DNA from: a virus
DNA: 55,201 nt
Reading direction: 5' to 3' (one strand)
Virus record (IMG/VR): IMGVR_UViG_3300022200_000056
Location: 1 to 55,201 of that record
Position 1 is the first letter of the stretch. Each line of letters begins with the position of its first letter. Position numbers and translations under genes: made by a program. Below are positions 6,055-41,526 of this stretch, in pieces. The notes beneath the pieces are model-generated. The model was given only the letters and a program-made list of their open reading frames with translations, was not told the DNA's origin and did not search any database.

Positions 6055-7089
6055 ATGCCAATGCCTAAAATTTCAGACGAAGTGCTCGCCTCCACAGTAA
6101 AGCACTTTGTTGAAGCTAATTACTCTGTAAAAGAAGCCGCTAAACTATCGGGAATAAACTACAACACATATACCTCTAGGTTAAGAGTTGCCAGAGAGCG
6201 CGGCCTTGTCACGGAGGGCGCCATTGTTTCAGCAACAGAGTCAACTCCAGCGCAGGAAGTTAAAGTCGTTGTAAAGCCTACATACAGAATACAACAACGC
6301 AAGTCTAAGCCCGATGAAACAAAGCGAGTGCTCGCAATCGGAGACTGCCATGATGGACCAAGACTGCCAGACAAGAGGCGGTTTTTTGCTATGGGCAGAT
6401 ACGCAAAAGAGCGAGAGATTAATGAGATAATACAGATAGGCGATTTCGCCACATGTGATTCTCTTAATAGGTTCGACAGAAACGACACAGTTAAGGGTCA
6501 AGAAAAGCCTACATTTAAACAGGACATGATTAGCTTCCAGTGTGCTGTTCGGGCTTTCCATAAAGGGCTTGGCGGCGCCGACATAAAGAGGCATGTAACA
6601 CTTGGCAACCACGAAGATAGGATTTGGTCGTTTACTAACAGAAACCCAGAGGTTGTGGAGATGTTGGACCAGTTGCTATTTGCAACTCTTGACGATTACG
6701 GGTGGACGTATTCGCCTTATGGTGAGTTTTACTACATTGGTGATGTCGGGTTTACTCATGCACCAATGAACATGATGGGCAAGCCATACGGCGGCATGCA
6801 TGCCGAGAACCAAATATCGAGAGACGCTCTACATGATATTGTGTTTGGGCATACTCACAAAAGGTTAGATAAAACTTTTCCTAAGATTGGCGGTAAAATA
6901 ACTGTCATGAACTTAGGTTGTAGTCTACCCGAAGGCCACGTTGAGGAGTATGCTAAACATAGTATTACTGGATGGAGTTACGGGGTATACGAAATCGGTA
7001 TTAAAGATGGTATAATAAATGAGCGAACATGGGTTCCTATGAACAAACTGATAGAAGAGTATGGTGGCGAATATGCGGGAGATCAATAA
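6055..7089 (+). CDS. Calcineurin-like metallophosphoesterase with N-terminal helix-turn-helix
   Basis: The 344-residue protein shows the metallophosphoesterase motifs in order: GDCHDG (about 96-101), GDFATC, GNHEDR and GHTHKR. These supply the two-metal centre of calcineurin-type enzymes. Residues 8-45 look like a homeodomain-like or Psq-type HTH (YSVKEAAKLSGINYNTYTSR), so the enzyme may be brought to DNA. Phage members of this family have been linked to nucleotide or DNA phosphodiester cleavage, but the substrate cannot be read here. A strong GGGGAG box precedes the first ATG; a second ATG two codons later is possible. It lies between lysis genes and overlaps the amidase start. Confidence 0.85.
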   Translation: MPMPKISDEVLASTVKHFVEANYSVKEAAKLSGINYNTYTSRLRVARERGLVTEGAIVSATESTPAQEVKVVVKPTYRIQQRKSKPDETKRVLAIGDCHDGPRLPDKRRFFAMGRYAKEREINEIIQIGDFATCDSLNRFDRNDTVKGQEKPTFKQDMISFQCAVRAFHKGLGGADIKRHVTLGNHEDRIWSFTNRNPEVVEMLDQLLFATLDDYGWTYSPYGEFYYIGDVGFTHAPMNMMGKPYGGMHAENQISRDALHDIVFGHTHKRLDKTFPKIGGKITVMNLGCSLPEGHVEEYAKHSITGWSYGVYEIGIKDGIINERTWVPMNKLIEEYGGEYAGDQ

Positions 7090-12355: not shown

Positions 12356-15300
12356 ATGGCAGTTGTATCTACCAAGAGTCCATTCACGGGGTTCGAGTAT
12401 AAATTTAAGATTGCTGGTGATCAGCCCACGCAACAAGAGCGTGAGGTAATTGCACAGTATCTTATCGCCACAGAAAAGCCATTACAGCAAGCGCCAGAAG
12501 ATCAGGAACTCATTGAGACAGAATCTCAAGGTTTCTTTTCTGGTGTTGGCTCTGGCGTATTTGGCAGTCTCGCACAGATACCTGCTGGTATCGTTGGCCT
12601 AGGCGAATCTGTTTTAGGTTATAACCCCGGCGAAACAACGGTAGGTCAGATCGCTGGCGGTGCATCAGATTACCTTCAGTCAGGTGTTGACTATGTGTTT
12701 GGCGAGGCTACTGACGATCCATACTCTAAGGCTGGTCAAACTTTAGGTTCCGTTGCCTCTTTCTTCATCCCCGGCTTAGGCGTAGCAAAAGGCGCGTCTC
12801 TTGCTGGCGCAGGTGCAAAGACAGCGACCGCTTTGGCGACAGCAACTGCGGCAACACAAGGTGTCGCTCTTGGATCTAAGGAGCAGATGGATAGAATCCA
12901 ACTTGCCCTTGAGAACGGAGAGCAACTATCTGACGACCAGATGCAATGGGCCACAATACTTGGTGGCGGCGTTGGGTCTACAGAAGCGCTTCCTATAGGT
13001 CGCTTGTTCGGTCAAATAGGAAAGATGTTGAGAAAGGTTCCTAAGGAAGAAAAGCAAACAGCAACATCAATTATTGCAAGACGGTTAAAGAACGCTGGCA
13101 CACAGGGACTTATAGAAGGCGGGCAAGAAGTTGGCGCCGCTATAATGCAAGACCTTGTTGAGCAAAATATATACAACCCAGATCTTGAAATTACAGCAAG
13201 CGCATATCAAGATGATGCTATTTATGGTGGCGGTGCTGGCGCCACATTACAGTTCTTGATTGATACTGTAGGCGGTCGCCGTGTGCGCAAACAGTTTGAC
13301 AAGGATCGTCAACTAGAGAACGACCTCAGAGAAGAGTCAAACGAAAAGCAATTTGATTTTGGCAATGCTCAAGCATCTCTTGGCTTTGAGCAGTACGATG
13401 ACGAGGGCAACCCAGTACAGCAACTGTTGCCACAGCCAGAAAAGGTAGAAAATCTAGAGGTTAATGTTGTTGATGAAACAACAACTGGCCCTACTGAAAA
13501 GCAGTTAGAAGATTCGGCGCGCCTGAAAAGACTGGCGTTAGACCCTACAGCGGAGAGAGAACTTCAAGCGCAAAAGATGCGCGAGATAACCGTTGGTGGT
13601 TTTGCTGGTGTAGATCTAAAGAACTTACCAGATGATGAGCAGTTGGCTGTTCGTCAGTACCGCACGCGCACGGGTATCGCCGATGTTGATTCAGAGATTG
13701 GAATCCAAGAACTTCAAGACATTGTTACTGACGCTTATGGCGCGGAGCGTGGCATTGCCGCGTACAATCGTGAGGCTACCAAACAAAAGCCAGCGTTCTT
13801 TGAGCCTAAGTTAACAGAGGCAGAGCAGGCACAGCAAAAAGAAGCAAGCATTGTTAACCAAAAAGTTATAGAGAACTTTGAGGACATGAAGCAGTCGCTC
13901 AAAGACGGTAGCATATTGGCTAAAGATGGTGTGATTAGCATACCAAAAATTCAGCGCAAGTATAAAATGAAAGTCAACGAAGCGCGCGCGGCAGTTGATG
14001 CCCTTGCTAAGAAGGGTCACGCTACACCTATATCACCTACTCAGCACAAAGCTGTTCTGCCTGAAGGTAAAGAGGAGCCTGTACAGTCTGATAAGCACAT
14101 CAAGTTAAGAGAGTTTGAATCTCAGTTAAATGCTCTGAGAGTGCAGGCCGCAGATGAACGCCGCAAACTGCAAGAACTGAAAGAGCGTGGCGCCACCAAC
14201 ACACAAGAACAAATGGAGATCGAGAACCAACAGCGCGTTGCTGACGAGACCAGCGCTAGAGTTGAGGCCATCTCTGAAAGAGTAAACACATTCCAAGCAT
14301 TGGCTAATCAGTCACAGCCAGACAACGCAGACAGAGTGAACGCTGTTCAGATCACGTCCAATGAAGCGCGTCAGGCCATGATGGAATCACTGAGCGCAAA
14401 GCCTACAGACGAGTACAAGCGCACTATCAACACAGTGGCTAACAACCTCCGCAAGTATTTGTTCAAAGACCTTGGTTTGTCTGATGTTGATCTAGTAACC
14501 CAGAATGTATTAGAGCCAGAGCGCATCAAAAGTGGTCATGTCGTAGAGGCTTATGAAACTTCAGGCGATGCTGGTCGCCGCATGATTACGATTGCCATGG
14601 AGGTCTATAATCCAAACCTGACAGAGGCACAACTTACACAGCGCCTCAAGGGTGTAGTAAACCACGAGGTGATCCACTCGCTTCGGTCGCTGGGTGTTAT
14701 CACTGACGCTGAGTTTAGTATGCTGGTTAAAGCGGCAACCAATCGCAAGTATGTGCGGTCAAAGGCTGGCAAAAACCTAGAGCGAGACTACACGTTCATG
14801 GAACGCGCTTCAATTATGAACCGTGGTCAGAGTCAAGAGTACATAGCAGAAGAAGCGGTGGCTGAAATGTTCCGCGCTTACGCTGATGGTCGCATCAAGG
14901 TCGGCGGAAAGCCGAAGGGTATCTTCCAAAAGATTGTACGCTTCTTTAAGTCTGTGTTCAGAGCCCACAGCGATGCAGGGTTTAACAGCGCCGCAGAATT
15001 GTTTGACGGCATCCTCGCTGGCAAGGTCGGCAAGAGACAGCGCAACCTACAAAAGGCCGCTCAAGCACCTGCTGGCTCTCGCTATTCCACTGCTGGCGTT
15101 CGCGCTGGGTACATGGTGCCACTTAAAGGTGACATTGAGCGCATTGGTCAAAACTTTAAGGATGTAACCAAGCGTGTACCTGAACTTGAAAAAGCGGCTA
15201 ATAGATTGGCTGATGGTGAGATCACATACGAAGAGTATGACAACATCGTCAATGAATTTAAGCCTATCATGCCGTATCAAACTGTCCCCGCTCCAGAAAC

Positions 15301-18300
15301 AATGGAAGACATGAGGCGTGCTTTGTCGGCTACTGCCCCAAAGAAACTGGAAAAGTTAGGCAAGGCATCTAACATTGAGGTTGGCACGCCAATTAGTTTA
15401 AGACTTGATATCCCAGCCTACAGGTATCAGGGAGTTTGGGTGCCCACCATTCATGACTCCAACAACAGAGTAATAGCGCATGAAGCGACAGCAGTAATAC
15501 AAAATGTGTCTTTCTCAGCGAGTGAAAGAACTGGCTTGCGGATTGCACAAGGTGGAGAGAAAGGCCCATACGCCACCATTAAAGGATCGTTCGTTGGGTC
15601 TAATCCTGACGCAGACTTTGCTCTGGCACAGCAACTTTTGCTTGACCCATCTGTTGTTCAGGTTGGATTTGATCCCACACGCCACGCATACTTCTATGAC
15701 AGGGTGACAACTCAGCCAGTTATTGGCGCTGATTTAGTCGTTCAGGTTGGCCCACTTGTCTTGGCAAAGAACCCACAGTTTGGTCGCAAGCCTGACTTCA
15801 AGTATTCAGTTGCTCGACTGCCTAACACGCCATCTAATCTACTTGGCCCGATTGATGTGGTTCATGATGTCAAGGATCGCTACCTTAAATCGGTTGGCAT
15901 GCCGATGCGGAGACAGGCTGAGTATGTACAAGTCAATGAAGATCTTGCGCGGCGTATTGCTGGGGCCTTCCAAGAGGCAGAGGACTCTCCTCTAGATCCA
16001 GATGTGCGCGCCGCATACAAGGCTATGGCTGATGAGACCAAAGCGCAATGGCAGTTTATTAAAGACACTGGTATCAACATTGAGTTTATCAAGCAAGGTC
16101 AGGACAACCCATACCCGAACGGATCGCGTGATGTGTTGCTTGATATCCGTGACAACAATCATATGTGGGTATTCCCAACTGAAGATGGATTTGGTGTAGA
16201 GGAAATCACAGATGAGCAAAGGGTTCTGAATCCATTGCTCGACAAGGTTGGCGAAAGAATTGATGGTCTTGACGTGACGGTCAATGACTTATTCCGTATT
16301 GTCCACGACTACTTTGGGCATGGGCTTGAGGGCGCGACCTTCACTGCCCGTGGCGAAGAGAACGCATGGCAAGCGCACGTTCGCATGTACTCTCCGCTTG
16401 CCGCAAGGGCTATGACAACAGAGACCCGCGGTCAAAACTCTTGGGTTAACTACGGTCCATATGGTGATCAGAACCGTGCCAACCCGGGCGAAACAGTTTA
16501 TGCTGATCAGAAACTTACGCTACTTCCTGACTTCGTTGTGAACGAGGGCGTGGCGCCAGACTTGGAGATTGAAGATGGAAGAATCGTTGAAGAAACAAAT
16601 GGACCAAACGGTGGAAGCCGAGTTGGCAGGTCAGACCTTGGTCGAGTCGGAAGAACTGGAGCAGGACAAGCTGGCGATGCAGGCAAGATACGCGCGCGCT
16701 CAGTCGCTCCTGTCCCGAGCGTCAACGAAGACGGCAAAGTCAGACTAACTCATTACTCAAGCGTAGAAGATATTGATACGGTAGACCCAGAACGTCATGG
16801 GTCTAACGTAATGATGCGTGGTGACGAGCGTGAGCGCCGTGTTGGCTTCTCATCCATATACCCACCTCGCAGTTACTATGGCTTGAATGTCGGGGAAGAT
16901 GGAGGGTACTCCAAGTCCAAAGACTCTTGGAACATTGGGGACTCTATGTACATTACAGAGGTTCCTCTTGAATCTTTGTACAATTGGGACGCTGACCCTG
17001 AGAACTTCAAAGACAAAGCAATAGCAACGATACCAGATCATCTTACTGTGTCGAGAGATCGCTCCAATCATGCGACAACCATGACTGAGAAGTTGATTAA
17101 GGATAGTGGCTATCTTGGCTACTATGCGAACAGTCCTATGGGTCTTGCTGCCGCAGTATTTAATCCGTTAAAAGTTAGACCTAACTTATCTGAGGCGCCG
17201 AAGTATTCTATCGCAAGGCTCACCCCTGAGCAGTACAAACTTACCAGCCTTGGTAATGTTAACACTGAGGTAGGTGACCCAGAGAACAGATACTACATAC
17301 CACAAGCACCATACAACACGGTAATACTTGTTGACGCTGCACAGAATATGCAAAACGATAGGGGCAATGTTGTTCTTGACTGGTCTGATCCAAATAACTG
17401 GGAAGAGATTGCTACTCTGATTGCGGCAGAGGCTGAAGCCGCCTATTCAAGAGACGGAAATGCTATTGGCTGGTATGACAAAACACTTAGCCTTGCCAAA
17501 AGAATTACCAGTGTCCTATTCCCAGATGTTAAGCCGGGGACTGCTGATGAAGCCGCGTATCAATACGCTACCGCTGTAACATCTAACGGTATTGGCGTGA
17601 TACCAAACTGGCAGTACGCCGCAGAGCAATACAGGAACTGGAAAGAAACTGGCAAGTTTATTGAGAAGGGCTTTGGCAATCAGGGCGGCTCAATGGTTAA
17701 TGCCTTTGCCCTGTATAACACCATGAAAGACATGGGCTACACCGACTTAGAGATCAAGGAATTTCTAAGCCAGAAGATGACCGTGCGTGAACTGCGTCAG
17801 AACAATGTTGTACGAGCGCTTGGTATTACAGTGGACGCCAAAGAGTCTGTCGATACTGAAGTGTATGTCTCTTATATCATGGGCCCTAAAATTGGTCAGG
17901 GCTTTTATCAGAACTTAAATGGCAACTTTGAAACACTCACCATGGATCGTTGGTGGATGCGTATGTTTAACCGCATAACTGGCGAGCCATTCAAAAATGT
18001 CACAGAGAGAACCGTTGCGAACAACGAGGCTCGAGTATTAAAAGCCGTAAACAACATGCCACTCAGAGAGGCAGAGGCTGAACTTGTAAAGGCATCTCTT
18101 GATGTTATTAACGCCGACATAGTAACAGATGCAAACGTGCAAGAGTTTGCCATAGAGTTAAACAACCAGTTTCAGAACTACAGAGTACGCAGGATTAAGG
18201 CTGGCTATGGCGAGCCAAAGAAATCAGAGTTACTGTTGGCGGCTGATACTGCGGCTAAAAACTTCACGACTCAAATGCAAGAAGATCCTCGCACGGCAAA

Positions 18301-21300
18301 GCAACGTACAGCAATGCGCGCTATTACCAATCGTGCCAGAGAGATTCTAAAGGAAGATCTTGGTATTGATATCAACAACGCTGACTTCCAAGCGCTGATG
18401 TGGTATCCTGAAAAGAATCTTTTCTATTCATACGGTGTCAGGAAGGGCATTGGTGATGACAACGATTACATTGATGGCGCTATAGCGCTACTACAAAAGG
18501 AAGGCTATGATGTCGAAACAATCGCAGAAGCACTCCCCGAAGCAGACCGAGTCATCGTCCGTGATCGGGCAAATTCCACGTTCTCAACTGAGGAATCTGG
18601 TGATGTCACTCCAATCACAGATGGACAAGAAGAAGGAAGCCCAAGAACTTCTGACCAAGAGCGAAAGCGAAGCATAGCGCTAGTACCAGAGCGCTCATAC
18701 AGTATGAGCAACTCTCGACTTGCCGAGCGAGTAGACCAGCAGACAGCCAAAATATCTTACAACAACGTATCAGGTTTGCTGTCCAAGGTTCTTGGTATAG
18801 CCACCTACAAGATCCCTAAGGCTCTTGGTATAGTCACTGACAAGGACAGAGCAGAGGCTTTGTCTGAAAGGTTCTTTACTAAGTATCAAGATGCACTGTT
18901 GCCAGTGGGTAAACTTTATGACGAGTTGAGCCGTGAGGGCGCCGACATTGTTGACGCCCACGATGCTTACCTACAGGAAGAACTAGCGCAAGGACGTGCT
19001 GGTTATCAGATTGAAAAGAACCAGCAGGAATTGTTTGAGCCTCTTGCTGAAAGCGTGAAGGCTTTGGACGCTACGGATACCAGCCTTTCATCGCTTGCCT
19101 CTGGCTCTAAATTTGTTAGAGATTATTTAGCAGAGGATCAGTCTCCAAAGATTGCACTTGCTGAAGCGTTTTTGTATGCACGGCACGCAAGAGAACGTAA
19201 CGCGTACATCTTAAATAAATACAAGCGCGGCGTTGGCTCTGGTATGTCAGATCAAGAAGCCGATTTTATTATGGATTGGGTGGCAAAGCAAGATCCAACA
19301 CTGCGCTCTCAACTGGACACTGTTGCATCATTTGCAGATGGCATCGTTCAAAGCACTAACAAGATACGCGAAGATGGAGACTTGATCCCAGACCCAGCGA
19401 CTGTACAGGCTGACCCAGAGGGCAAGTGGCAACCAACTAACTTCAGCAACTATGTACCACTGCGTGGAACAATGGAGCCTGACGAAGAGGCGTCTCAAGA
19501 TTACCGCAACTCATCGCGCCGTTCGCCCAACCTGTATGGTTCAAGGGGTAGACTTGAAGCGCGGATGCAAGGACGTGGTGATAGTTATGCCGTAAACATC
19601 TTGGCTAACTTGATGGCTCAGAATCAACAGTCCGTTCAGAAGGCAGAGCGCAACAAGGTTGGTAAGGCTTTCTATGAACTGATCACAAACAGGGACATTG
19701 ACACATCCAACTATGGTGAGGTCATCGACAAATATGATGACTCCATTCGTGACAACATCTTGACTGTTAAAATAAACGGTGAAGAAAAGCATATCGAAAT
19801 CTTTGATGACCGTATCGCACGCGCCCTGAAGGGTGCAATGACGCCAACAAAATCTTCTAGCCTTGTTAGGTTTATGGGAAAAATTAATCGCGTCCTGTCA
19901 AACCTAAACACATCTTGGAACCCAGAGTTTGTTATATCTAACTTTGCCCGTGACCTTGAGACAGCAGCAATTAACATCAATCAGTATGAAGAAAAAGAGA
20001 TAACAAGAGAGATTGTTAAGAACGCATTGCCAGCGGTGAAGGGCATCGCTGGGTTGCTTCGTGGCAATAAGGATAGTGAGTGGGCTAGAATCTACGAAGA
20101 GTTTGTGAAGGCTGGCGGTAAGAACGCGACCAACCAAATGTCAGATCTACAAGATCAGGTTGAGCAACTCAAAGGTATTGTTGATGGCATAGGTAGAGAC
20201 TCTAAGTCTGGCAAACTTGGCTTGGTAAAGAATGGCTTCAGCAAACTTGGCAAATTCCTTGAAGACTACAACACTGCGGTTGAGAACGGCGTTCGCATAG
20301 CAACCTTTGATGCGTTACGCAAGCGAGGATACAGTGAACAAAGAGCAGCACAAGCGGCAAGGAATGTGACTGTTAACTTTGCCAAGGGTGGCGAAGACAA
20401 GGTTCTCATGAACAGCCTGTTCCTATTCTATAACGCATCACTTCAAGGTTCGATGGCACTAGCCAATGCGGCTGTTCGCTCGCCAAAGGTAAGAGCATTA
20501 TGGGGTAGCATGTTTATTTATGGCATGCTTCAAGACCAGTTGATGGGTGCGCTGTCTGACGATGAGGATGGAGACGGTAAGAACGACTATGACGAGTTAA
20601 GTGACTACACTCTTGAGCATAATCTTATTCTACCTAACCCATTTGCAGGAGTTATTGGCGGCAAGTTTATTAAGATCCCACTTGCCTACGGACTTAACAT
20701 GGCGACCAACACAGGGCGCTCAATCAGCCGTGTTATGCGTGGTGAGTACACCGTTGGTCAGGCGAGCGAAACAATTACAGGCACTATGCTTGAACTCCTA
20801 AACCCTCTTGGCTCTGGAATTGAAGACTGGGAAAACATTGCGGCTCCCACTGTAGTAGACCCATTCGTTTCGCTAATGGTAAACAAGGACTACAAGGGCG
20901 ACCCAATCTACAAGTTTAGCTCTCCGTTTGGCTTGCAAAAGCCAGACAGCCAGATGTACTGGAACAACACCAGCCCTGTGGCTCGCACTATCGCACAGCA
21001 AATAAATTCTTTGACCGGAGGAACAGAGGTAACTCCGGGGTATATAGATTTTTCTCCAGATGTTCTTGAGTTTTGGTTTGACTACGTTACTGGCGCCGCT
21101 GGTGCGTTTGTAAGAAGGTCAGTTGAAACTCCGGTCAATGTAACCAAGGCTCTGGCTGGCGACTTTGACGGTGATCTTTCTCGAACACTGCCGATTGTAC
21201 GCAAACTAACAATCTCCCCATCATCATATGAAGATGTGGGAGTTTACATTGAGAACAGGGATAAGATCCTGAGCGCGCGTAAAGAACTTGAGACAGCAAT

Positions 21301-21547
21301 GGCATACAGAGACCCAGCAAACATACGCCGTGTCCGTGCTGAGTATGAAACATTGCTTAGTATATATGGCAATGTCAAGCGTATCGACAACGCTCGGAAC
21401 AGATTGATCAGACAGAAGAACACAATAAGAAACAATCCCATTATGCCAGAGGCAAGGAAGACTGAACTGATTGCTAAGATCAATGAAAGGATTAGTCAGT
21501 TGGTTAAAGAGGCCAACAAGACTATGTATGACGCTGGAATAAGGTAA
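12356..21547 (+). CDS. Giant polyvalent virion protein (3063 aa) with metalloprotease, ADP-ribosyltransferase-like and LPD38-like modules
   Basis: This one gene fills a sixth of the window. Modules by residue: 50-175 Gly/Ala-rich hydrophobic, possibly membrane-active; 400-620 charged helices with a winged-helix-like patch; 690-890 zinc metalloprotease-like with HEVIH at 770-774; 1010-1148 a beta domain (VGFDPTRHAYFYDR); 1180-1440 a domain with VHDYFGHG at 1316 and GEENAWQAH; 1463-1610 ADP-ribosyltransferase-like (HYSSVED, DPERHG, SGYLGYYANS); 1640-2080 with DRWWMRMFNRITG and LMWYPEKNLFYSYG; 2120-3063 the long C-terminal region with WNPEFVISNFARD at 2521, resembling LPD38. Domain borders carry repeated R/K-Y-S motifs (909, 1149, 1616; related RSYS at 2113). 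It follows the ejection proteins and is probably packaged and delivered into the host. Module names are from memory. Confidence 0.85.
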   Translation: MAVVSTKSPFTGFEYKFKIAGDQPTQQEREVIAQYLIATEKPLQQAPEDQELIETESQGFFSGVGSGVFGSLAQIPAGIVGLGESVLGYNPGETTVGQIAGGASDYLQSGVDYVFGEATDDPYSKAGQTLGSVASFFIPGLGVAKGASLAGAGAKTATALATATAATQGVALGSKEQMDRIQLALENGEQLSDDQMQWATILGGGVGSTEALPIGRLFGQIGKMLRKVPKEEKQTATSIIARRLKNAGTQGLIEGGQEVGAAIMQDLVEQNIYNPDLEITASAYQDDAIYGGGAGATLQFLIDTVGGRRVRKQFDKDRQLENDLREESNEKQFDFGNAQASLGFEQYDDEGNPVQQLLPQPEKVENLEVNVVDETTTGPTEKQLEDSARLKRLALDPTAERELQAQKMREITVGGFAGVDLKNLPDDEQLAVRQYRTRTGIADVDSEIGIQELQDIVTDAYGAERGIAAYNREATKQKPAFFEPKLTEAEQAQQKEASIVNQKVIENFEDMKQSLKDGSILAKDGVISIPKIQRKYKMKVNEARAAVDALAKKGHATPISPTQHKAVLPEGKEEPVQSDKHIKLREFESQLNALRVQAADERRKLQELKERGATNTQEQMEIENQQRVADETSARVEAISERVNTFQALANQSQPDNADRVNAVQITSNEARQAMMESLSAKPTDEYKRTINTVANNLRKYLFKDLGLSDVDLVTQNVLEPERIKSGHVVEAYETSGDAGRRMITIAMEVYNPNLTEAQLTQRLKGVVNHEVIHSLRSLGVITDAEFSMLVKAATNRKYVRSKAGKNLERDYTFMERASIMNRGQSQEYIAEEAVAEMFRAYADGRIKVGGKPKGIFQKIVRFFKSVFRAHSDAGFNSAAELFDGILAGKVGKRQRNLQKAAQAPAGSRYSTAGVRAGYMVPLKGDIERIGQNFKDVTKRVPELEKAANRLADGEITYEEYDNIVNEFKPIMPYQTVPAPETMEDMRRALSATAPKKLEKLGKASNIEVGTPISLRLDIPAYRYQGVWVPTIHDSNNRVIAHEATAVIQNVSFSASERTGLRIAQGGEKGPYATIKGSFVGSNPDADFALAQQLLLDPSVVQVGFDPTRHAYFYDRVTTQPVIGADLVVQVGPLVLAKNPQFGRKPDFKYSVARLPNTPSNLLGPIDVVHDVKDRYLKSVGMPMRRQAEYVQVNEDLARRIAGAFQEAEDSPLDPDVRAAYKAMADETKAQWQFIKDTGINIEFIKQGQDNPYPNGSRDVLLDIRDNNHMWVFPTEDGFGVEEITDEQRVLNPLLDKVGERIDGLDVTVNDLFRIVHDYFGHGLEGATFTARGEENAWQAHVRMYSPLAARAMTTETRGQNSWVNYGPYGDQNRANPGETVYADQKLTLLPDFVVNEGVAPDLEIEDGRIVEETNGPNGGSRVGRSDLGRVGRTGAGQAGDAGKIRARSVAPVPSVNEDGKVRLTHYSSVEDIDTVDPERHGSNVMMRGDERERRVGFSSIYPPRSYYGLNVGEDGGYSKSKDSWNIGDSMYITEVPLESLYNWDADPENFKDKAIATIPDHLTVSRDRSNHATTMTEKLIKDSGYLGYYANSPMGLAAAVFNPLKVRPNLSEAPKYSIARLTPEQYKLTSLGNVNTEVGDPENRYYIPQAPYNTVILVDAAQNMQNDRGNVVLDWSDPNNWEEIATLIAAEAEAAYSRDGNAIGWYDKTLSLAKRITSVLFPDVKPGTADEAAYQYATAVTSNGIGVIPNWQYAAEQYRNWKETGKFIEKGFGNQGGSMVNAFALYNTMKDMGYTDLEIKEFLSQKMTVRELRQNNVVRALGITVDAKESVDTEVYVSYIMGPKIGQGFYQNLNGNFETLTMDRWWMRMFNRITGEPFKNVTERTVANNEARVLKAVNNMPLREAEAELVKASLDVINADIVTDANVQEFAIELNNQFQNYRVRRIKAGYGEPKKSELLLAADTAAKNFTTQMQEDPRTAKQRTAMRAITNRAREILKEDLGIDINNADFQALMWYPEKNLFYSYGVRKGIGDDNDYIDGAIALLQKEGYDVETIAEALPEADRVIVRDRANSTFSTEESGDVTPITDGQEEGSPRTSDQERKRSIALVPERSYSMSNSRLAERVDQQTAKISYNNVSGLLSKVLGIATYKIPKALGIVTDKDRAEALSERFFTKYQDALLPVGKLYDELSREGADIVDAHDAYLQEELAQGRAGYQIEKNQQELFEPLAESVKALDATDTSLSSLASGSKFVRDYLAEDQSPKIALAEAFLYARHARERNAYILNKYKRGVGSGMSDQEADFIMDWVAKQDPTLRSQLDTVASFADGIVQSTNKIREDGDLIPDPATVQADPEGKWQPTNFSNYVPLRGTMEPDEEASQDYRNSSRRSPNLYGSRGRLEARMQGRGDSYAVNILANLMAQNQQSVQKAERNKVGKAFYELITNRDIDTSNYGEVIDKYDDSIRDNILTVKINGEEKHIEIFDDRIARALKGAMTPTKSSSLVRFMGKINRVLSNLNTSWNPEFVISNFARDLETAAININQYEEKEITREIVKNALPAVKGIAGLLRGNKDSEWARIYEEFVKAGGKNATNQMSDLQDQVEQLKGIVDGIGRDSKSGKLGLVKNGFSKLGKFLEDYNTAVENGVRIATFDALRKRGYSEQRAAQAARNVTVNFAKGGEDKVLMNSLFLFYNASLQGSMALANAAVRSPKVRALWGSMFIYGMLQDQLMGALSDDEDGDGKNDYDELSDYTLEHNLILPNPFAGVIGGKFIKIPLAYGLNMATNTGRSISRVMRGEYTVGQASETITGTMLELLNPLGSGIEDWENIAAPTVVDPFVSLMVNKDYKGDPIYKFSSPFGLQKPDSQMYWNNTSPVARTIAQQINSLTGGTEVTPGYIDFSPDVLEFWFDYVTGAAGAFVRRSVETPVNVTKALAGDFDGDLSRTLPIVRKLTISPSSYEDVGVYIENRDKILSARKELETAMAYRDPANIRRVRAEYETLLSIYGNVKRIDNARNRLIRQKNTIRNNPIMPEARKTELIAKINERISQLVKEANKTMYDAGIR
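13863..13878. repeat. Dispersed palindrome site, 2 mismatches
   Basis: AAGTTATAGAGAACTT inside the giant gene (encoding the phrase KVIENF). It belongs to the AAGTTCTATAGAACTT family. Confidence 0.45.
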
Positions 21548-28337: not shown

Positions 28338-28400
28338 GCATGAAGGTCATGCGTTTCCTCCCAAACTAAAGGGGGCGGCTAATCACCGCCCCCTTCTTTT
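28338..28400 (+). terminator. Rho-independent terminator (two hairpins)
   Basis: The main stem is AAGGGGGCGG / CCGCCCCCTT (28369-28378 and 28386-28395) with a 7-base loop and a CTTTT tail. A smaller GCATGA-AGG-TCATGC hairpin precedes it at 28338-28352. It closes the plus-strand helicase operon against the convergent minus block. Confidence 0.85.
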
Positions 28401-28431: not shown

Positions 28432-29330
28432 CTAGATGTTAGGCATCATGCTGTTGCTATCAATCGACATGTCTGCACGAGTTGATGCGCGACCGTTGAG
28501 GTAGTTGATCCATGTTCGCGCTAGCAATATTGACATCACATCTGCTGTCACCTTGTTGCGGTTAGCAACGCGGATCTCAGTAATTTTTGTCAGGAAGTAA
28601 CGCACTGGTGAGCGCACACCCTTGCCATGGTTTGACGCGAGATCGTTTAGGAACTCGCATACCTTCTCATCATCGCCGCTCTCTGCAACGATGTGAACAA
28701 CGCCGCAAGAGGCGGCACTGGGATCAATGTGCTTTTCTTAGTGATCTTAGATAGCCTGATTGCTTTCTCAAGAACATTAGTGTCAACCTCATCAACGTAA
28801 AACTTGCGAAGTTCATCGTTCGTAAGGCGAACATTCTTTGTGTTTGCATGACCGCTCTTGTATGCCACGATGTGGCGAAGGACAGAGCCTGTCATCGATG
28901 GGTAAGGAACGCCCATGATGGTGAACACATCCATGTTTGAACGGTTCGCGCCGACATCCATGTGGATAAACGACTCTGGATCAATGCCAAAGATGGCGTG
29001 AGTGATGAACGGTTTGCCAGCGCGAACGCATGCGCTCAAGCGGTTCTGTCCATCCTTCAAGTAACCATCCTTGCCAAAGGCCAAAGTGGCATTAGTCAAA
29101 GACCAATTGCCGCCCAACATGTCCTTGGCGTATGTCTTAATCTTCTCCGTCTTCTTTGTACGGTTTCCGATGTTGAGGTTTTCAAGGATGTGTTCCGCCA
29201 AGAACGGTGTGACCTCAATCACACGAGAGTTCTGTGGTGGGTTCTTGATCAGTGAGTAAAGATTTTCAATCTGATCTGACGGATCGAGCGATGAGTTCAA
29301 GCCGCGCTGTTTTGAGATTACTGAAAGCAT
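28432..29330 (-). pseudogene. ParB-like DNA-binding protein gene split by a -1 frameshift
   Basis: Frame A (29330 down to 28647) gives 227 residues with ITEVTPF-type start, NRTKKTEKIKTYAKDML, LKDGQNRLSACVRAG and DVGANRSNMDVF, like phage ParB-fold proteins whose DGQNRL resembles the ParB/Srx nucleotide motif. It loses sense after LAALFTSL. Another frame then reads on coherently: AESGDDEKVCEFLNDLAS, then VRSPVRYFLTKITEIRVANR, ending at 28432. Joining them needs a -1 shift around 28680-28700. No good slippery heptamer is seen, so a mutation or sequence error is more likely than programmed shifting. Intact length would be about 298 residues. Confidence 0.72.
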
Positions 29331-29610
29331 GTTGCTTTCCTTTCTCCCCCATGTCCGTTTGTCGGGGGTCTGTTGCCTTGCCCAAGGGCTTACACATGTC
29401 TCCCAATGGTGGGCAGTCCAAAGGAAACTGAAAAGTTCTATAAAACTAATTAATAAAATTAAAACTATTGGCCGTCATAATATTGGTGTTGGGAAGAGCG
29501 CCACCAATAACGCTCTTCCCTGTGTGCTGGTCAGTGAGGGAAAGGAGAAACCCCGATAGGCAACACTAACCTAAACGCCTACACACATGCGTTAACCAAC
29601 CCTATCGGGG
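29331..29610 (-). promoter_or_regulatory. Structured 5' leader of the ParB-like gene
   Basis: This 270-base non-coding stretch has several perfect inverted repeats: CCCCGATAGG / CCTATCGGGG (29551-29560, 29601-29610), GGGAAGAGCG / CGCTCTTCCC (29491-29500, 29511-29520), a CCCCC/GGGGG stem near 29346-29368 and GCCC-TT-GGGC near 29379. An AT-rich zone at 29440-29470 and a palindrome site at 29433 mark a probable promoter. The outermost stem could also terminate the upstream gene. Confidence 0.5.
29433..29448. promoter_or_regulatory. Dispersed palindrome site, 2 mismatches
   Basis: AAGTTCTATAAAACTA is intergenic, in the AT-rich part of the ParB-like gene's leader. Confidence 0.5.
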
Positions 29611-29850
29611 TAACTGGTTGTCAAATCTAATGTGCGGCTCATCACAAATCAATGTGATCTTTGGATTATTCTTCCATGAACCGAAGAAATTTTCAACACG
29701 ATAATGCAAGTCAGAGTGGTTTGCATCAAGGTAACTTGAACACTCCGCATGAGTTTTGAATTTAGGATCAGACCACTGAGCCTCTAACTCAGATGTCACC
29801 TCTCCGTTAAACGAAAAGGTGGTGAGAATAATAATAGCGTACTCATTCAT
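29602..29850 (-). CDS. Small hypothetical protein with hydrophobic N-terminus
   Basis: The 82-residue protein starts at MNEYAIIIL with GGAAGG seven to eight bases upstream; ten earlier codons overlap the upstream membrane gene and are rejected. The first 15 residues are hydrophobic, like a weak signal or anchor. The rest is acidic with one Cys pair far apart (AECSSYLD, ITLICDEP), which might form a disulfide if exported. No family is recognised. It overlaps the preceding gene by eight bases. Confidence 0.62.
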   Translation of the reverse strand: MNEYAIIILTTFSFNGEVTSELEAQWSDPKFKTHAECSSYLDANHSDLHYRVENFFGSWKNNPKITLICDEPHIRFDNQLPR

Positions 29851-30022
29851 CTCTAAACCTTCCTGATCTTGACATGGCATATGCAGATGTAATCATCATA
29901 AGCATGCCAATAAGCATAACAAGACAACCCAGCACAAGGCTATAGGTGTCTGGCAATTCAGCGACAGACATCCCTGCTTGTATAACGAGCAGAGAGGATA
30001 CAAAAATTATAGGCCAGATCAT
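29843..30022 (-). CDS. Small two-helix membrane protein
   Basis: The 59-residue protein starts at MIWPIIFVS with AAGGAG six bases upstream; the longer frame begins in the leader. It has two membrane segments, about residues 2-20 and 28-47 (LVLGCLVMLIGMLMMITSAY), and a basic tail (MSRSGRFRDE). A membrane anchor or inhibitor role within the MoxR/VWA operon is possible; a holin is less likely given the location. Confidence 0.65.
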   Translation of the reverse strand: MIWPIIFVSSLLVIQAGMSVAELPDTYSLVLGCLVMLIGMLMMITSAYAMSRSGRFRDE

Positions 30023-30032
30023 TTCATTCTCC

Positions 30033-30314
30033 TTATGATTTAAGTGATGCGCGACCACAGTGTGGGCATTCATGTAACATCATGTCTACATGGTATTGGA
30101 ATGTGTCCTCATCCATAAACTCATACGGCGAGTGGCTTGCTGAGAACATGGGCGCGATCACACCGTAATCGCCGCTCAGTTTTGTTTCCTCATAGCAGTC
30201 ATGAAATACCTTGCGGTTTTCCAAAGCGCCCTCAGCGTCATAGTAATCATCAACATGTGGCAGATACCTTATGCCACGGTATGAATATTCAGGTGCGTTA
30301 TCCCAACTAATCAT
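30033..30314 (-). CDS. Small acidic protein with C-terminal CxxC
   Basis: The 93-residue acidic protein is rich in Tyr and Asp and ends with HECPHCGRASLKS, half of a zinc knuckle; other possible ligands are His residues in FQYHVDMMLHE. An AAGGAG box precedes the ATG. No family is recognised. It sits between the 261-residue gene and the small membrane gene in one transcription unit. Confidence 0.65.
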   Translation of the reverse strand: MISWDNAPEYSYRGIRYLPHVDDYYDAEGALENRKVFHDCYEETKLSGDYGVIAPMFSASHSPYEFMDEDTFQYHVDMMLHECPHCGRASLKS

Positions 30315-30324
30315 GATTATCTCC

Positions 30325-31110
30325 TTATAGATTGTCGAGCAGTGTGCCCAAGACGAACGCCTTGGTTCTGCGGTTTAGTAATTCAATGGCAGACTGAAGG
30401 TTTTTTGAGTATGCATGAACCTTCTGCGTCTCGCCTTTATCTGACAACAAGTCAGTGCTATCATGGTTATGCACCACAAGCCATCCGATTTGGACATCAG
30501 GCACACTCTTTTTCCAAGTGACCGTCTTTACCTTGAAGGCAGTGGCAGTCTCTGGCAGTGCATCGAAAATTATGTCTGCCTTTTTTGCATGCATAACAAA
30601 CCTCTTGCCTGATCCTGACATCAGCATAGCAAGACCTTCTAAGAACACGTTGCGATACCAAGTCAACTTTAGACCCACACGATTAGTACATGTGTAATCG
30701 CTAGTTTTCTCATGCTCAATATATGTGTCCTTTGCATTGGATTCCACCACCCCAAGACCCATGCACCGTATGTAATTATCCGACAGAACACGTTGTGCAA
30801 GTGCGAAGGTTAGGTCTGCATGTTTTTTCATTGGGTTGAAGGTATTCTTTGATGTCTTTGCATTGGCAAATTGGCGATAGTCTCTAACCTGATTGACCAT
30901 ACTCTGCATGTACTTAACCACAGCACTCTCAACACCGAAGCAATGTTCATCAAAGAATTTATCAACATCAACGCTGATGTCAAATTTGCTTCTCCCCCTG
31001 AGGATTAGGCAAACCAAATCGTTTGGCATCTCCCAAGTTTTTGCCATGTCATTGATTGCCTTCTTACACTGCATCGCAGATAGATAATTCTTTTTTAATT
31101 GTTCATTCAT
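30325..31110 (-). CDS. Hypothetical protein of the MoxR/VWA operon
   Basis: The 261-residue protein starts at MNEQLKKNY; the four preceding codons are the GGAGACTACA ribosome box. N-terminal half: helical with basic patches (LRGRSKFDISVDVDKFF). C-terminal half: alternating strands (KADIIFDALPETATAFKVK, VQIGWLVVHNHDSTDLL) ending in a helix. No catalytic or nucleotide-binding motif is seen. It lies directly downstream of the VWA gene with a 36-base gap, so it is a candidate substrate or partner for the MoxR/VWA pair. Confidence 0.68.
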   Translation of the reverse strand: MNEQLKKNYLSAMQCKKAINDMAKTWEMPNDLVCLILRGRSKFDISVDVDKFFDEHCFGVESAVVKYMQSMVNQVRDYRQFANAKTSKNTFNPMKKHADLTFALAQRVLSDNYIRCMGLGVVESNAKDTYIEHEKTSDYTCTNRVGLKLTWYRNVFLEGLAMLMSGSGKRFVMHAKKADIIFDALPETATAFKVKTVTWKKSVPDVQIGWLVVHNHDSTDLLSDKGETQKVHAYSKNLQSAIELLNRRTKAFVLGTLLDNL

Positions 31111-31146
31111 TGTAGTCTCCAATCATAAGAGGTTAAGATGGCGGCA

Positions 31147-32274
31147 CTATGCCGCCACCTGTATTCTTGTTGTTTCACCGATGGGTGCATCATTGCAATC
31201 CATATCGGTTGATACCCATAGCACTGGGTAATCTGGTGTTTCATTCGGATAGTCGAAGATGCCCATGTCAGTCAGGTAAACCATAGCATCGCATGGTATC
31301 TGATTGTCATAGACATAATCGAATACAGGCATGACGCGAGTGCCGCCTCTACCCTTGGCCTCGACACCGTTGATGTACTCGCCTTGAGCATACTCAGTCA
31401 CAGACTGAACCTCAGCATCGCAGACGATCAATGTGATAGAGCGCGGATTAAAATCCTCAATCAACTGGTTGAAGACACCAAGGAAATATTCCTGCTCACG
31501 CATCGATACACTGCCACTGCTATCCCAGCCCAGCACGATGTCACCGACACCGACACGATCAACTGCTGGCATGTATATGCCTTGGGTGTAGTACACTTTG
31601 CGATTGCACCGCCGCCATGTGTAATCTTCTGGCTGATCACCGCCAACAAATCTGCGGATCACATCCATCCAATCAACTTGAGAACGCCGCATGCGCGACA
31701 CCATCTCTTTAATCTTAGATGGTAGTTTGCCAGCGTTCTCAGCCGCCTGTGCCGCCATGAAGACACGCTGGTCTACATCTGCCGCCATCTGCTCCAGATC
31801 GCCCTGAGAGGGCTGTGAGCCGTCTTCATTGGATGCATCCATGACGATGCCCCATGATGGCTGATCCGCGCCGCCATCAGACTGAGGCAACAGGTCAAAT
31901 ATTTTCTCTGCCGCCATGCCTTTGTACTGCTCACTGAACAGGCCATCTTCTGGCAGGACAAAGCCGCCATCGGTGAGGATGTCATTGATGGCGTAGTCGG
32001 TGGCGATGTTCCATTTTTTATGATCACGATCACCGCGCCGCAGATGATGTTTCATCACGATGTGCATGACCTCATGAGCGATTACGCCCTTGATCTCATC
32101 CTCACTGTGACGGTCAACGAAGGGCTCTGCCCAGATGATCTTCTTGCCATCGGTTGCCATCGTCTCGATGCTATCATCTTGTACAAAATGACATCCAAGT
32201 GCGATGCTACCGAAGAAGGGGTGCTTGACCATTAGACTGGTCTTGCACCGTGCAATTTTTAGATTAGCATCCAT
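31147..32274 (-). CDS. Metallopeptidase-like/VWA protein (DUF2201 type), MoxR partner
   Basis: The 375-residue protein has two domains. Residues 1-150 are a zincin-like domain with HEVMHIVMKHH (His 67, Glu 68, His 71), and residues 240-375 are a von Willebrand A-like domain with the MIDAS motif DSSGS at 251-255, a later Thr (GRGGTRV) and Asp (LTDMGIFD). This matches DUF2201 proteins usually paired with MoxR ATPases. The linker is Gln/Asp-rich. VWA partners of MoxR bring substrates by metal-dependent binding. The start at 32274 follows a GGAGACTA box. Whether the HExxH domain cleaves anything is unknown. Confidence 0.85.
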   Translation of the reverse strand: MDANLKIARCKTSLMVKHPFFGSIALGCHFVQDDSIETMATDGKKIIWAEPFVDRHSEDEIKGVIAHEVMHIVMKHHLRRGDRDHKKWNIATDYAINDILTDGGFVLPEDGLFSEQYKGMAAEKIFDLLPQSDGGADQPSWGIVMDASNEDGSQPSQGDLEQMAADVDQRVFMAAQAAENAGKLPSKIKEMVSRMRRSQVDWMDVIRRFVGGDQPEDYTWRRCNRKVYYTQGIYMPAVDRVGVGDIVLGWDSSGSVSMREQEYFLGVFNQLIEDFNPRSITLIVCDAEVQSVTEYAQGEYINGVEAKGRGGTRVMPVFDYVYDNQIPCDAMVYLTDMGIFDYPNETPDYPVLWVSTDMDCNDAPIGETTRIQVAA

Positions 32275-32290
32275 GCTAGTCTCCATAAAA

Positions 32291-32306
32291 AAGTTCTATA
32301 TAACTT
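32291..32306. promoter_or_regulatory. Dispersed palindrome site, 1 mismatch
   Basis: AAGTTCTATATAACTT lies between the MoxR and VWA genes, just ahead of the VWA ribosome site and overlapping the last two bases of the MoxR gene. Confidence 0.55.
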
Positions 32307-33321
32307 ACACAAGGGTAAGCGCGGAACCGTTGGTCAACGCCCACTGGCGAAGAGCCTCAACCTTTTTCAATTCAGGATCACGGCTCACCGCATCCTTGAT
32401 GACGAAGGCAGAAAATTCTTGCTGAGGCAGACGATTGAGGTATGCGATGATCTTGCCAAGGTTGGTTTGATTTGCCTTAAATGCCAGACCAGCACAGATT
32501 GCGTATGTCACCGCAGGATCTTCACTGATCATTGCAATCTCAGGATTAGCAATCAACTCATCGAGATCTGGACAGGTGTCATAGATCTTGAGAAACCCAA
32601 GAAAATCTGCACAGGCAGGACGCCCTACCTGACCAGCGATTGCCTCAGTCTGGCAGACTGCATCCAGCCCCCATCCCATGACAGATGACACCCTATCCCA
32701 TGATCGTGGCGATGGCGATGCATTGGCATCACGATCAAATTTATGTAACCATTCTGGGCGAAAGCGCAGGAACGCACAAATGCGTTGATCGACACCAACC
32801 TTATTGAAGTAGCCGATGGCATCCTCAAGGTCAGCCTCGATCTCCAAGAACATCAGGCGATCTTTAAGATGCGATGGCATGGTGTTTGTACCAGCGCGGT
32901 CACTGGTGCGATTGCCAGCCGCCACGATAGCCCAGCCATCAGGCAGACGGTGCTGACCGACACGCCGCTCATTGACGATTTGTGCGGCGATGTTCTGGTT
33001 GGCGACTGGTGCTTGAGGCAATTCATCCAAGAAGAGGATGCCCTCACCTTCCGAAGGCATCCAGTCTGGGCGAAGGCGTTTCATACCATCACCATCATTG
33101 ACCAGCCATCCTGCAAGTTCGCCAGCATCATACTGAGCAAGCGAAACGACAAGACACTGAACATCACGGCTTTTGGCGATGTCCTGAACAACGGTTGTTT
33201 TACCAAGACCAGCACCGCCGATCAGGTATGGGATTGGACGCATTGCATCGCGGCCTTGGGCGTTGGTGATTTGGCTGTCGATTGAAGCCTCGACAATGGC
33301 TTTTGATTGAGTAAGACGCAT
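32305..33321 (-). CDS. MoxR-family AAA+ ATPase
   Basis: The 338-residue AAA+ protein has Walker A GGAGLGKTT (35-43), Walker B GILFLDELP (94-102), sensor 1 AAGNR (134-138) and an arginine-rich DRAGTNTMPSHLKDR segment typical of MoxR. MoxR ATPases act as chaperones that remodel proteins or insert metals together with a VWA protein, here the next gene. It is preceded by a UUCG-type hairpin and an AGGAGAAAAG ribosome site. Phage copies are uncommon enough to be notable. A host-takeover or virion-maturation role is inferred. Confidence 0.9.
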   Translation of the reverse strand: MRLTQSKAIVEASIDSQITNAQGRDAMRPIPYLIGGAGLGKTTVVQDIAKSRDVQCLVVSLAQYDAGELAGWLVNDGDGMKRLRPDWMPSEGEGILFLDELPQAPVANQNIAAQIVNERRVGQHRLPDGWAIVAAGNRTSDRAGTNTMPSHLKDRLMFLEIEADLEDAIGYFNKVGVDQRICAFLRFRPEWLHKFDRDANASPSPRSWDRVSSVMGWGLDAVCQTEAIAGQVGRPACADFLGFLKIYDTCPDLDELIANPEIAMISEDPAVTYAICAGLAFKANQTNLGKIIAYLNRLPQQEFSAFVIKDAVSRDPELKKVEALRQWALTNGSALTLV

Positions 33322-33365
33322 AACTTTTCTCCTTGTTTGCGTTGGTTATATGGCGAGATGCCACG

Positions 33366-33383
33366 ACACCCCCGAAGGGGTGT
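33366..33383 (-). promoter_or_regulatory. UUCG-tetraloop hairpin between operon genes
   Basis: On the minus strand ACACCCC-TTCG-GGGGTGT is a 7-bp stem with an exceptionally stable C(UUCG)G loop, followed by no U-run. It lies between the 221-residue gene and MoxR. It may block 3' degradation, partly terminate, or set the expression ratio of the two genes. A second short stem (GACAG/CTGTC) lies at 33387-33405. Confidence 0.6.
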
Positions 33384-33419
33384 TTCGACAGTTTCTCATG
33401 CTGTCATCGTCAGGTAGCG

Positions 33420-34085
33420 TTATGCGGCATCAAGTGCGCCCAGCACCTTGTCCACAACTTCATTTTCAGATGCGGCATCAGCCATAGCCTTTGCCGCCGC
33501 ATCATCTGATGCAAGCCGTGCGGCCTTCAACTCGCGGCACGCATCATCGAACTCAGCCCAATCCATCGCATCGTATTTGGATGGCTTGAATGAACCAGTT
33601 ACGGTTTCTTTGCCGAACAACTTTTCTGCCAGTTTAAACATCTCAGATTTGCCAGCGTCACCATCGACAGCATCCATGAGTTTTTTCTCGCTATCAATTT
33701 CATGATCATCAAACACTGCCCTGACCATTTCGGGCGTTACGTTGTCGCCGCCAATGCCCAACTTGTGGCGAGCCTTGACGCTGTTCTCTTTCAGTTTCTT
33801 GGCGGTGGCTGGCTTGATGTATGCACCCAACTCTTCGCTCAGTTGTTTAGACACTGTGGCAGGAAGGCGTTTGTTCTTGCCATTGCCAACCAACCCGACT
33901 GGCGAGATCGCCACGATCAGGCTGACGTACTGGTTAATCTTATGGGCATTCATCTGCTGGGTGTTCGCGTTGTTCTCCATGGTGCGTGCCTTGTTCTCGC
34001 CGCGCAAATTAGCAATGGATGCCTCAGCATTGGCAATGTCTGCCATGGTGTTGTCGAAATTTTGAGTGTTAAAAATGTCCTGCAT
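33420..34085 (-). CDS. Hypothetical 221-aa protein upstream of MoxR
   Basis: This protein has an N-terminal coiled region rich in Asn/Ala (IANAEASIANLRGENKARTM), a middle domain with YVSLIVAISPVGLVGNGKNK, and a long charged C-terminal helix rich in Ala/Asp (ELKAARLASDDAAAKAMADA). No known motif is seen. The start has a GGAGACTATT box. Its position as the nearest upstream neighbour of MoxR suggests it is a component or client of that system. The Ala/Gly-rich codon use has somewhat higher GC than neighbours. Confidence 0.7.
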   Translation of the reverse strand: MQDIFNTQNFDNTMADIANAEASIANLRGENKARTMENNANTQQMNAHKINQYVSLIVAISPVGLVGNGKNKRLPATVSKQLSEELGAYIKPATAKKLKENSVKARHKLGIGGDNVTPEMVRAVFDDHEIDSEKKLMDAVDGDAGKSEMFKLAEKLFGKETVTGSFKPSKYDAMDWAEFDDACRELKAARLASDDAAAKAMADAASENEVVDKVLGALDAA

Positions 34086-34117
34086 AATAGTCTCCTGTGA
34101 ATTGCAGTTGGTTGGTG

Positions 34118-34285
34118 TTATTTCCAGATCACTTCAATTTGTGAAGTTTTCTCATCGGTCTTCCATTCGCCGATAGGCTTGCGTGACATGGTGCAGAACA
34201 CCTTGCCAGCGCGGTCACCTACGACCTTTTCGAAACGATCAATTTCATTAAGAAAATCGTTAAATGTTTTGAAGATCTCTTTCAT
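34118..34285 (-). CDS. Small hypothetical protein (55 aa)
   Basis: This 55-residue frame starts at MKEIFKTFNDFLNEIDRFEK with GGGAGAA seven bases upstream and ends EVIWK. It fills the otherwise empty gap between two operon genes with normal spacing and codon use. The middle has FCTMSRKPIGEWKTD. No family is recognised. Confidence 0.68.
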   Translation of the reverse strand: MKEIFKTFNDFLNEIDRFEKVVGDRAGKVFCTMSRKPIGEWKTDEKTSQIEVIWK

Positions 34286-34287
34286 GG

Positions 34288-34491
34288 TTATTCTCCCTTG
34301 AACTCAAAACGCTGGTCAAAATATGCAGGGTTGTCAGAGCATGCGATAGCATCCTTAACCTGTTGGACATTCATCCATCCGCACATTGCCATCTCGAAGG
34401 CATCATCGAAGTTGATGAAACCAAGATTAGCCAAGGTCTTCAGTGCCTCGCGGCGGATAGGTGTGAGTTTAGCATCTGCAATTTTAGACAT
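34288..34491 (-). CDS. Small helical hypothetical protein, first gene of the MoxR operon
   Basis: The 67-residue protein is helical with the phrases RREALKTLANLGFINFDDAFEM and NVQQVKDAIACSDNPAYFD. The early part has an HTH-like spacing, so autoregulation is possible. The ATG follows a clear AGGAGACAACG box. The structured GC-rich region begins immediately upstream and would form the operon's leader. Confidence 0.68.
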   Translation of the reverse strand: MSKIADAKLTPIRREALKTLANLGFINFDDAFEMAMCGWMNVQQVKDAIACSDNPAYFDQRFEFKGE

Positions 34492-41157: not shown

Positions 41158-41526
41158 ATGTATTCTGCTACTAAAGAAGTCGATCAAAAGATCGCAATTA
41201 AAATACCAGATCCTTCTGGATACAAACTCTTAATTAAACCTTTAGAAGTCCAAGAAAAAACTGAAAGCGGTATTTATATGCCTGACGCCCTTAAGAGCGC
41301 AGAGCAAACCGCATCGGTAATTGGATTCGTGGTCAAGATGGGCCCTGATGCTTACAAAGACGCAAGTAAGTTTCCGAACGGACCGTATTGTAAAGAAGGC
41401 GACTTTGTAATTTTTCGTTCTTATTCCGGCACACGGTTTAAGATTGAAAAGCAAGAGTTTCGCCTTATTAACGATGACACTGTCGAAGCAGTTGTCGATG
41501 ACCCAAGGGGATATACAAGAGCATGA
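41158..41526 (+). CDS. GroES-like co-chaperonin (Cpn10 family)
   Basis: The 122-residue protein follows the Cpn10 order: GYKLLIKPLEVQEKTESGIYM (N-terminal strand and start of the mobile loop), ALKSAEQTASVIGFVVKMGPDAY, then CKEGDFVIFRSYSGTRFKI and FRLINDDTVEAVVDDP. The mobile loop around EKTESGIYMPD should bind host GroEL. Co-chaperonins such as T4 gp31 let GroEL fold phage capsid protein. Its place between portal and scaffold supports that. The Cys is not conserved in the family. Confidence 0.83.
   Translation: MYSATKEVDQKIAIKIPDPSGYKLLIKPLEVQEKTESGIYMPDALKSAEQTASVIGFVVKMGPDAYKDASKFPNGPYCKEGDFVIFRSYSGTRFKIEKQEFRLINDDTVEAVVDDPRGYTRA

Follow-up and report, generated by a model that had tools for sequence, protein, structure and literature searches.

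Two undescribed gene families accompany a phage MoxR–metallopeptidase pair whose presence does not follow the virion module

Introduction

Pairs of a MoxR-type AAA+ ATPase and a protein with a von Willebrand factor A (VWA) domain belong to the core gene set of hundreds of phages, N4 among them, without a known function, the leading idea being a part in virion assembly. In N4-like phages the pair is represented by the core genes gp24/gp25, whose function is unassigned (PMC4193335), and the assembly proposal was made by Iyer et al. (2021) by analogy with the p618/p892 pair of the archaeal virus ATV (PMC7824862). Docking of a VWA protein on a MoxR ring has been established by cryo-electron microscopy (cryo-EM) for the cellular NorQ–NorD system (PMC13036017). 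Here we describe such a pair in the virus record IMGVR_UViG_3300022200_000056, the whole of which (55,201 bases) is hereafter called the window, within a minus-strand run of genes extending from 34491 to 28432. As judged by sequence comparison, the pair itself is not new but belongs to the N4 gp24/gp25 family, present in >700 phage records; the new part of the finding is two further families, termed F221 and F265, which the same comparisons indicate are undescribed and which complete a conserved four-gene cassette with the order F221-MoxR-VWA-F265.

Results

An intact MoxR–metallopeptidase pair

A first-pass annotation of the window, made from the sequence alone, had placed a MoxR ATPase directly beside a DUF2201-type protein, an arrangement borne out by Pfam and PHROGs matches. 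The MoxR gene (32305–33321, minus strand, 338 amino acids) matches phrog_1297 (E 5.7e-73) and scores barely over the cut-off of the Pfam AAA family; its nearest profiles in the PDB are the AAA domains of midasin, with CbbQ/NorQ-type proteins matched too. The metallopeptidase-VWA gene (31147–32286, minus strand, 379 amino acids) matches phrog_1314 (E 4.1e-97), DUF2201_N (E 1.7e-41, 143 bits against a cut-off of 23.2) and DUF2201 (E 4.2e-18, 66 bits against a cut-off of 26.4), and contains both of the features predicted for it, an HExxH motif (as HEVMH) and the DxSxS of a metal-ion-dependent adhesion site (MIDAS).

Loss of catalytic residues across homologues, for which the annotation had advised looking, was seen in none of 80 VWA proteins and was nearly absent from 89 MoxR proteins. 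K41 (Walker A), D99 and E100 (Walker B), N137 (sensor 1) and R206 (sensor 2) of MoxR are invariant in 89/89, and the presumed arginine finger R155 is kept in 82/89, with Cys in the other 7. In the VWA protein the HExxH motif, N93, D97, N101 and the DxSxS of the MIDAS are invariant in 80/80, the last MIDAS positions (T316 and D340) being kept in 79/80, with 1–2 gaps or substitutions. By tblastn, 724 named phage records contain the VWA protein and 795 contain MoxR, N4-like, rV5-like and jumbo phages and cyanophage S-TIM5 among them; scans of 84,980 bacterial and archaeal genomes found no relatives of MoxR or F221. "HNH endonuclease", the PHROGs name of phrog_1314, has been copied into many deposited phage records; the window protein shows no HNH domain, and for the DUF2201 metallopeptidase-VWA family the name seems to be a mistake passed on from record to record.

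Gene order and selection

The pair is preceded by F221 (33420–34085, minus strand, 221 amino acids), the first gene of the cassette, and followed by F265 (30325–31122, minus strand), which encodes 265 amino acids from a TTG start or 261 from the ATG at 31110. Conservation of this neighborhood, another check that had been recommended, was surveyed by a MoxR-seeded scan of IMG/VR (71 loci, MoxR mostly 60–73% identical) and a second, independent scan seeded with the F221 family (68 further loci). These ~140 loci stem from two overlapping searches and include some near-copies, 89 being distinct by MoxR sequence. Throughout them the order F221, MoxR, VWA, F265 is kept on one strand, with no strand-discordant case. 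Within the MoxR-seeded set, VWA lies downstream of MoxR in all 65 untruncated loci and is missing only at contig ends, whereas F221 is found in 60 of the 61 loci with enough flank (it is cut off in 10 and absent from locus L085). F265 follows VWA in 43 of 44 loci of this set scored as having enough flank, and in the exception, again L085, a deeper profile finds a match immediately past VWA (E 2.6e-5). Of the F221-seeded loci, 57 have MoxR and the other 11 end within 1.8 kb downstream.

F221 and F265 keep their place with MoxR–VWA in relatives with a MoxR that is mostly 48–73% identical, and the expectation of dedicated partners therefore holds for the 221- and 261/265-residue genes, whose order and strand are kept. 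It does not hold for the neighbors of 67, 55, 93, 59 and 82 residues, which are almost confined to same-species contigs. A MoxR/VWA pair without these neighbors, the arrangement that was to count against partnership, does occur in distant phages (N4-like, rV5-like, S-TIM5) but not in the close clade. The five small genes lie outside the cassette core, as does a 227-amino-acid gene that in relatives is usually found beyond the exonuclease (exo) and annealing protein (sak) genes, away from the cassette. Variable accessory genes occupy gaps of up to 4.2 kb between F221 and MoxR and up to 3.5 kb between VWA and F265. The commonest optional member is a 181-amino-acid family between F221 and MoxR in 32/89 distinct loci (e.g. 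L023:8868-9413).

Purifying selection acts on each of the four larger genes, the median dN/dS (the ratio of nonsynonymous to synonymous substitution rates) being 0.13 for F221, 0.09 for MoxR, 0.10 for VWA and 0.21 for F265; the dN of F265, a fast-evolving family, is the highest of the four at ~5 times that of MoxR. Because these genes are both constrained in this way and conserved across dozens of loci, the locus is not a product of chance. Between the window and its relative L005, F221, MoxR and VWA are 97–99% identical and the genes past VWA mostly 64–89%, a drop just after VWA that looks like a recombination breakpoint.

Two putative partner families

Neither F221 nor F265 gave a convincing match in Pfam, PHROGs, NCBIfam, PADLOC or PDB sequences. 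The AlphaFold2 model of F221 (predicted local distance difference test score, pLDDT, 83) is helical throughout, and that of F265 (pLDDT 81.6) combines a helical N-terminal half with an alpha/beta C-terminal domain. Compared with PDB folds, the two models gave no E value <0.001 and VIA Z scores <8, which is no proof of a new fold.

A more distant relative of F221 was recovered by profile from Pag-Yong1, a Planktothrix phage (cyanophage) whose MoxR is about one-third identical to that of the window. Its 279-amino-acid gene directly upstream of MoxR ranks first of 354 proteins (probability 83), and an hhalign comparison with the relative from locus L161 added reached a probability of 92 (E 5.9e-7), shuffled sequences giving ≤0.5. 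Possible F265 counterparts, CRP-7 gp16 and a 300-amino-acid gene of Pag-Yong1, each lie directly downstream of VWA; they were the top two of 150 candidates at only 2–3% probability and, being suggestive at best, were set aside. In Pag-Yong1 the gene next but one after VWA (L012:11316-12356) is labelled by its depositor as the anti-CRISPR AcrVA2.

The MoxR tree places the window clade with L085 and CRP-7 and then, more weakly, with Pag-Yong1. The closest large terminase subunit (TerL) and major capsid protein (MCP) are those of Pelagibacter phages HTVC023P/027P and of DSL-LC04, 023Pt_psg01 and Pag-Yong1; by these terminase and capsid sequences the window phage is not N4-like, though the gp24/gp25 pair is present, its counterparts in relatives being annotated as N4 gp24-like and gp25-like. 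Among 13 diverse named phages compared, all 13 have the VWA protein, none has a BLAST homologue of the window neighbors near MoxR/VWA, and none of the enzyme genes next to the pair is common to the set.

Inheritance relative to the virion module

Five complete genomes (HTVC027P, HTVC023P, 023Pt_psg01, CRP-901 and DSL-LC04) share TerL, portal, GroES, tail proteins and an MCP (55–66% identical) with the window, and in all six reading frames of each neither MoxR nor VWA was present. Conversely, CRP-7 carries both MoxR and VWA, and in the 49 of its 58 kb that were read none of the window's head or packaging genes has a counterpart. The pair is thus independent of the virion module in this phage group, which is the chief argument against virion assembly here but is not proof.

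Strand points in the same direction. The cassette lies opposite to the small terminase subunit gene TerS in 54/54 loci, to TerL in 26/26 and to the primase-helicase gene in 37/37, and on the same strand as exo in 29/29 and sak in 28/28. The idea that the cassette goes with a particular primase-helicase type was considered and dropped, that helicase family being widespread. In N4 itself gp24/25 are middle transcripts (PMC4193335), and in PEV2 many neighboring genes are annotated as "transcribed in early infection".

Between the portal and capsid genes of the window lies a GroES-type co-chaperonin gene (41158–41526, plus strand; Pfam Cpn10, E 7.9e-14), with a same-place counterpart in HTVC027P, HTVC023P, 023Pt_psg01, DSL-LC04, CRP-901 and Pag-Yong1; because its position is kept in these six relatives, we assign it to the virion module.

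Other features of the window

All of the neighbor sizes given by the first-pass annotation (221, 55, 67, 261, 93, 59 and 82 residues) were found on the minus strand, as were the metal and membrane features it ascribed to two of these genes. Upstream of F221 lie open reading frames of 67 (34288–34491; found at same-species loci and, at 45%, in L072/L073) and 55 amino acids (34118–34285; confined to same-species loci). Past F265 come a 93-amino-acid frame with a single CPHC motif (30033–30314; same-species loci and, at 38%, L088), a very hydrophobic, membrane-type frame of 59 amino acids (29843–30022) and one of 82 amino acids (29602–29850), the last two confined to same-species loci. Intergenic gaps are short throughout from 34491 to 29602, and the 227-amino-acid gene (28647–29330, minus strand; phrog_5931, unknown function) follows ~270 bp past the 82-amino-acid frame. 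A terminator-like hairpin of 10 pairs, 8 of them G-C (28369–28395; a consensus match only), separates the convergent units of replication genes (plus strand) and the cassette strand (minus). A scan for sigma-70 promoters gave matches no more frequent than in shuffles.

Elsewhere, a metallophosphoesterase-like gene (phrog_221; 6055–7089, plus strand) lies within the tail/structural region, and the C-terminal quarter of a 3063-amino-acid protein (12356–21547, plus strand) matches the large PHROG families phrog_14770 and phrog_616, of unknown function; a search of the seven phages related to or compared with the window gave no match to its C-terminal part.

Discussion

We favor the view that this locus encodes an active MoxR–metallopeptidase machine with two co-inherited partners, to which we assign a probability of roughly 0.8; that the machine has a non-virion role inside the cell, in early or middle infection, we hold to be about an even chance. 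The core would be the four-gene cassette. MoxR would form an ATP-driven ring, on which the metallopeptidase-VWA protein should dock via its MIDAS-bearing VWA domain, because such docking is established biology of MoxR/VWA pairs (cryo-EM of NorQD; PMC13036017), bringing with it the zinc-peptidase site. ATP hydrolysis would remodel a target protein and may also let it be cut, cleavage being implied by the invariance of the zinc site. On the simplest view, F221 (conserved and helical) would be a regulator or scaffold and F265 (fast-evolving, with a coiled coil and an alpha/beta domain) a possible target adaptor, the target being a non-virion protein acted on in the early/middle phase. It is by inference that we have the proteins form a complex, give F221 and F265 these roles, and set the time of action in this phage and the kind of target. 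The non-virion role is favored because the pair is absent from phages with the same virion module, is present in CRP-7 and faces away from the late genes.

The alternative that survives best, though we consider it unlikely, is a virion-assembly or maturation chaperone, in which MoxR-VWA would act on a structural protein, by remodelling or cleavage, while heads or tails are being assembled. Virion assembly was proposed in jumbo phages for the same architecture of MoxR and metallopeptidase-fused vWA (PMC7824862); p618/p892 interacts with virion proteins and has been assigned to tail development (PMC4124505); and the gp24/25 homologues of RPP1 have virion protein genes nearby (PMC4193335). The last two observations weigh against our preferred reading, and so do several others. 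The comparison took in no more than five virion relatives without the cassette, and these may represent one or a few loss events; a helper gene can be lost, and early transcription is compatible with an assembly role. F221 went undetected in L085 and in CRP-7 (49 of its 58 kb searched), and F221 and F265 could share operon inheritance without working with MoxR. Set against an assembly role are the five complete genomes that have a homologous virion module and neither gene, CRP-7 with the pair and an apparently unrelated virion, and the strand of the cassette, which at every locus examined is other than that of the late genes. On the genome comparisons the earlier suggestion that the phage uses the pair for maturing its own virion is disfavored.

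Less probable still is a counter-defense or host-takeover protease-chaperone, aimed by F265 as a fast-evolving adaptor at a host defense or regulatory complex. The rapid protein-level evolution of F265 in a kept position, the strand and genomic position that point to non-late expression, and the AcrVA2-like annotation in Pag-Yong1 would all fit; however, a dN/dS of 0.21 speaks for purifying and not diversifying selection, neither PADLOC nor any other comparison gave a match that suggests a target, and the AcrVA2 annotation carries no more weight than its depositor's label. We likewise think it improbable that F221 and F265 are unrelated passengers kept in place by operon structure. The partnership is deduced from gene order, and accessory genes do intervene between the members; yet that order is maintained despite accessory-gene turnover, and F221 adjoins MoxR also in the deeply diverged Pag-Yong1. 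Activation of a phage enzyme by metal insertion or conformational repair in the style of NorQD/CbbQO, with proteolysis secondary, is the role of the best-understood MoxR/VWA pairs (PMC13036017, PMC4660213) and would suit the nucleotide-metabolism genes (e.g. thymidylate synthase) near the pair in several phages, but it is the least likely of all, with no one enzyme gene recurring beside the pair in the 13 phages and an invariant zinc-peptidase site that a pure chaperone would not need.

Returning to the preferred machine with two partners, we tentatively put forward a narrower version, in itself doubtful: an AAA+ protease-remodeller of four components, specific to phages and built on MoxR-VWA, with F265 as its fast-evolving target adaptor and F221 as a conserved subunit of its core. 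It would remodel or cleave a host complex early in infection, as a phage counterpart of the adaptor-dependent AAA+ proteases of cells.

Among described systems, NorQ/NorD and CbbQ/CbbO share the MoxR ring and VWA co-factor and serve as the mechanistic model of how the VWA protein docks and how ATP drives remodelling (PMC13036017). Unlike the phage cassette, they are cellular metal-insertion or enzyme-repair systems. To our knowledge, neither has a zinc-peptidase domain of the kind in the window. The MoxR-vWA-VMAP ternary conflict systems resemble the cassette in joining MoxR and vWA to a third conserved component (PMC7159879), but PADLOC and Pfam recognized no conflict component in the window, an effector-fused vWA was not seen, and comparison of F221 and F265 with these two resources gave nothing above noise to suggest a VMAP-like third component. 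As far as can be told from its published description, ATV p618/p892 likewise joins a MoxR ATPase of a virus to a VWA protein, which binds the ATPase and stimulates its activity (PMC4124505); the pair differs in belonging to an archaeal spindle-shaped virus and in reportedly lacking the peptidase domain (PMC7824862). N4 gp24/gp25, core genes of the Schitoviridae, have both families and their relative order in common with the window (PMC4193335), whereas the N4-like relatives examined are without F221 or F265. Closest in architecture is the jumbo-phage pair of Iyer et al. (2021), with the same N-terminal metallopeptidase fused to vWA (PMC7824862); proposed there for virion assembly, the pair is here untied from the virion module and joined by two conserved partners. 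Separating the pair from the virion and naming two partner families would thus provide handles on a long-standing question.

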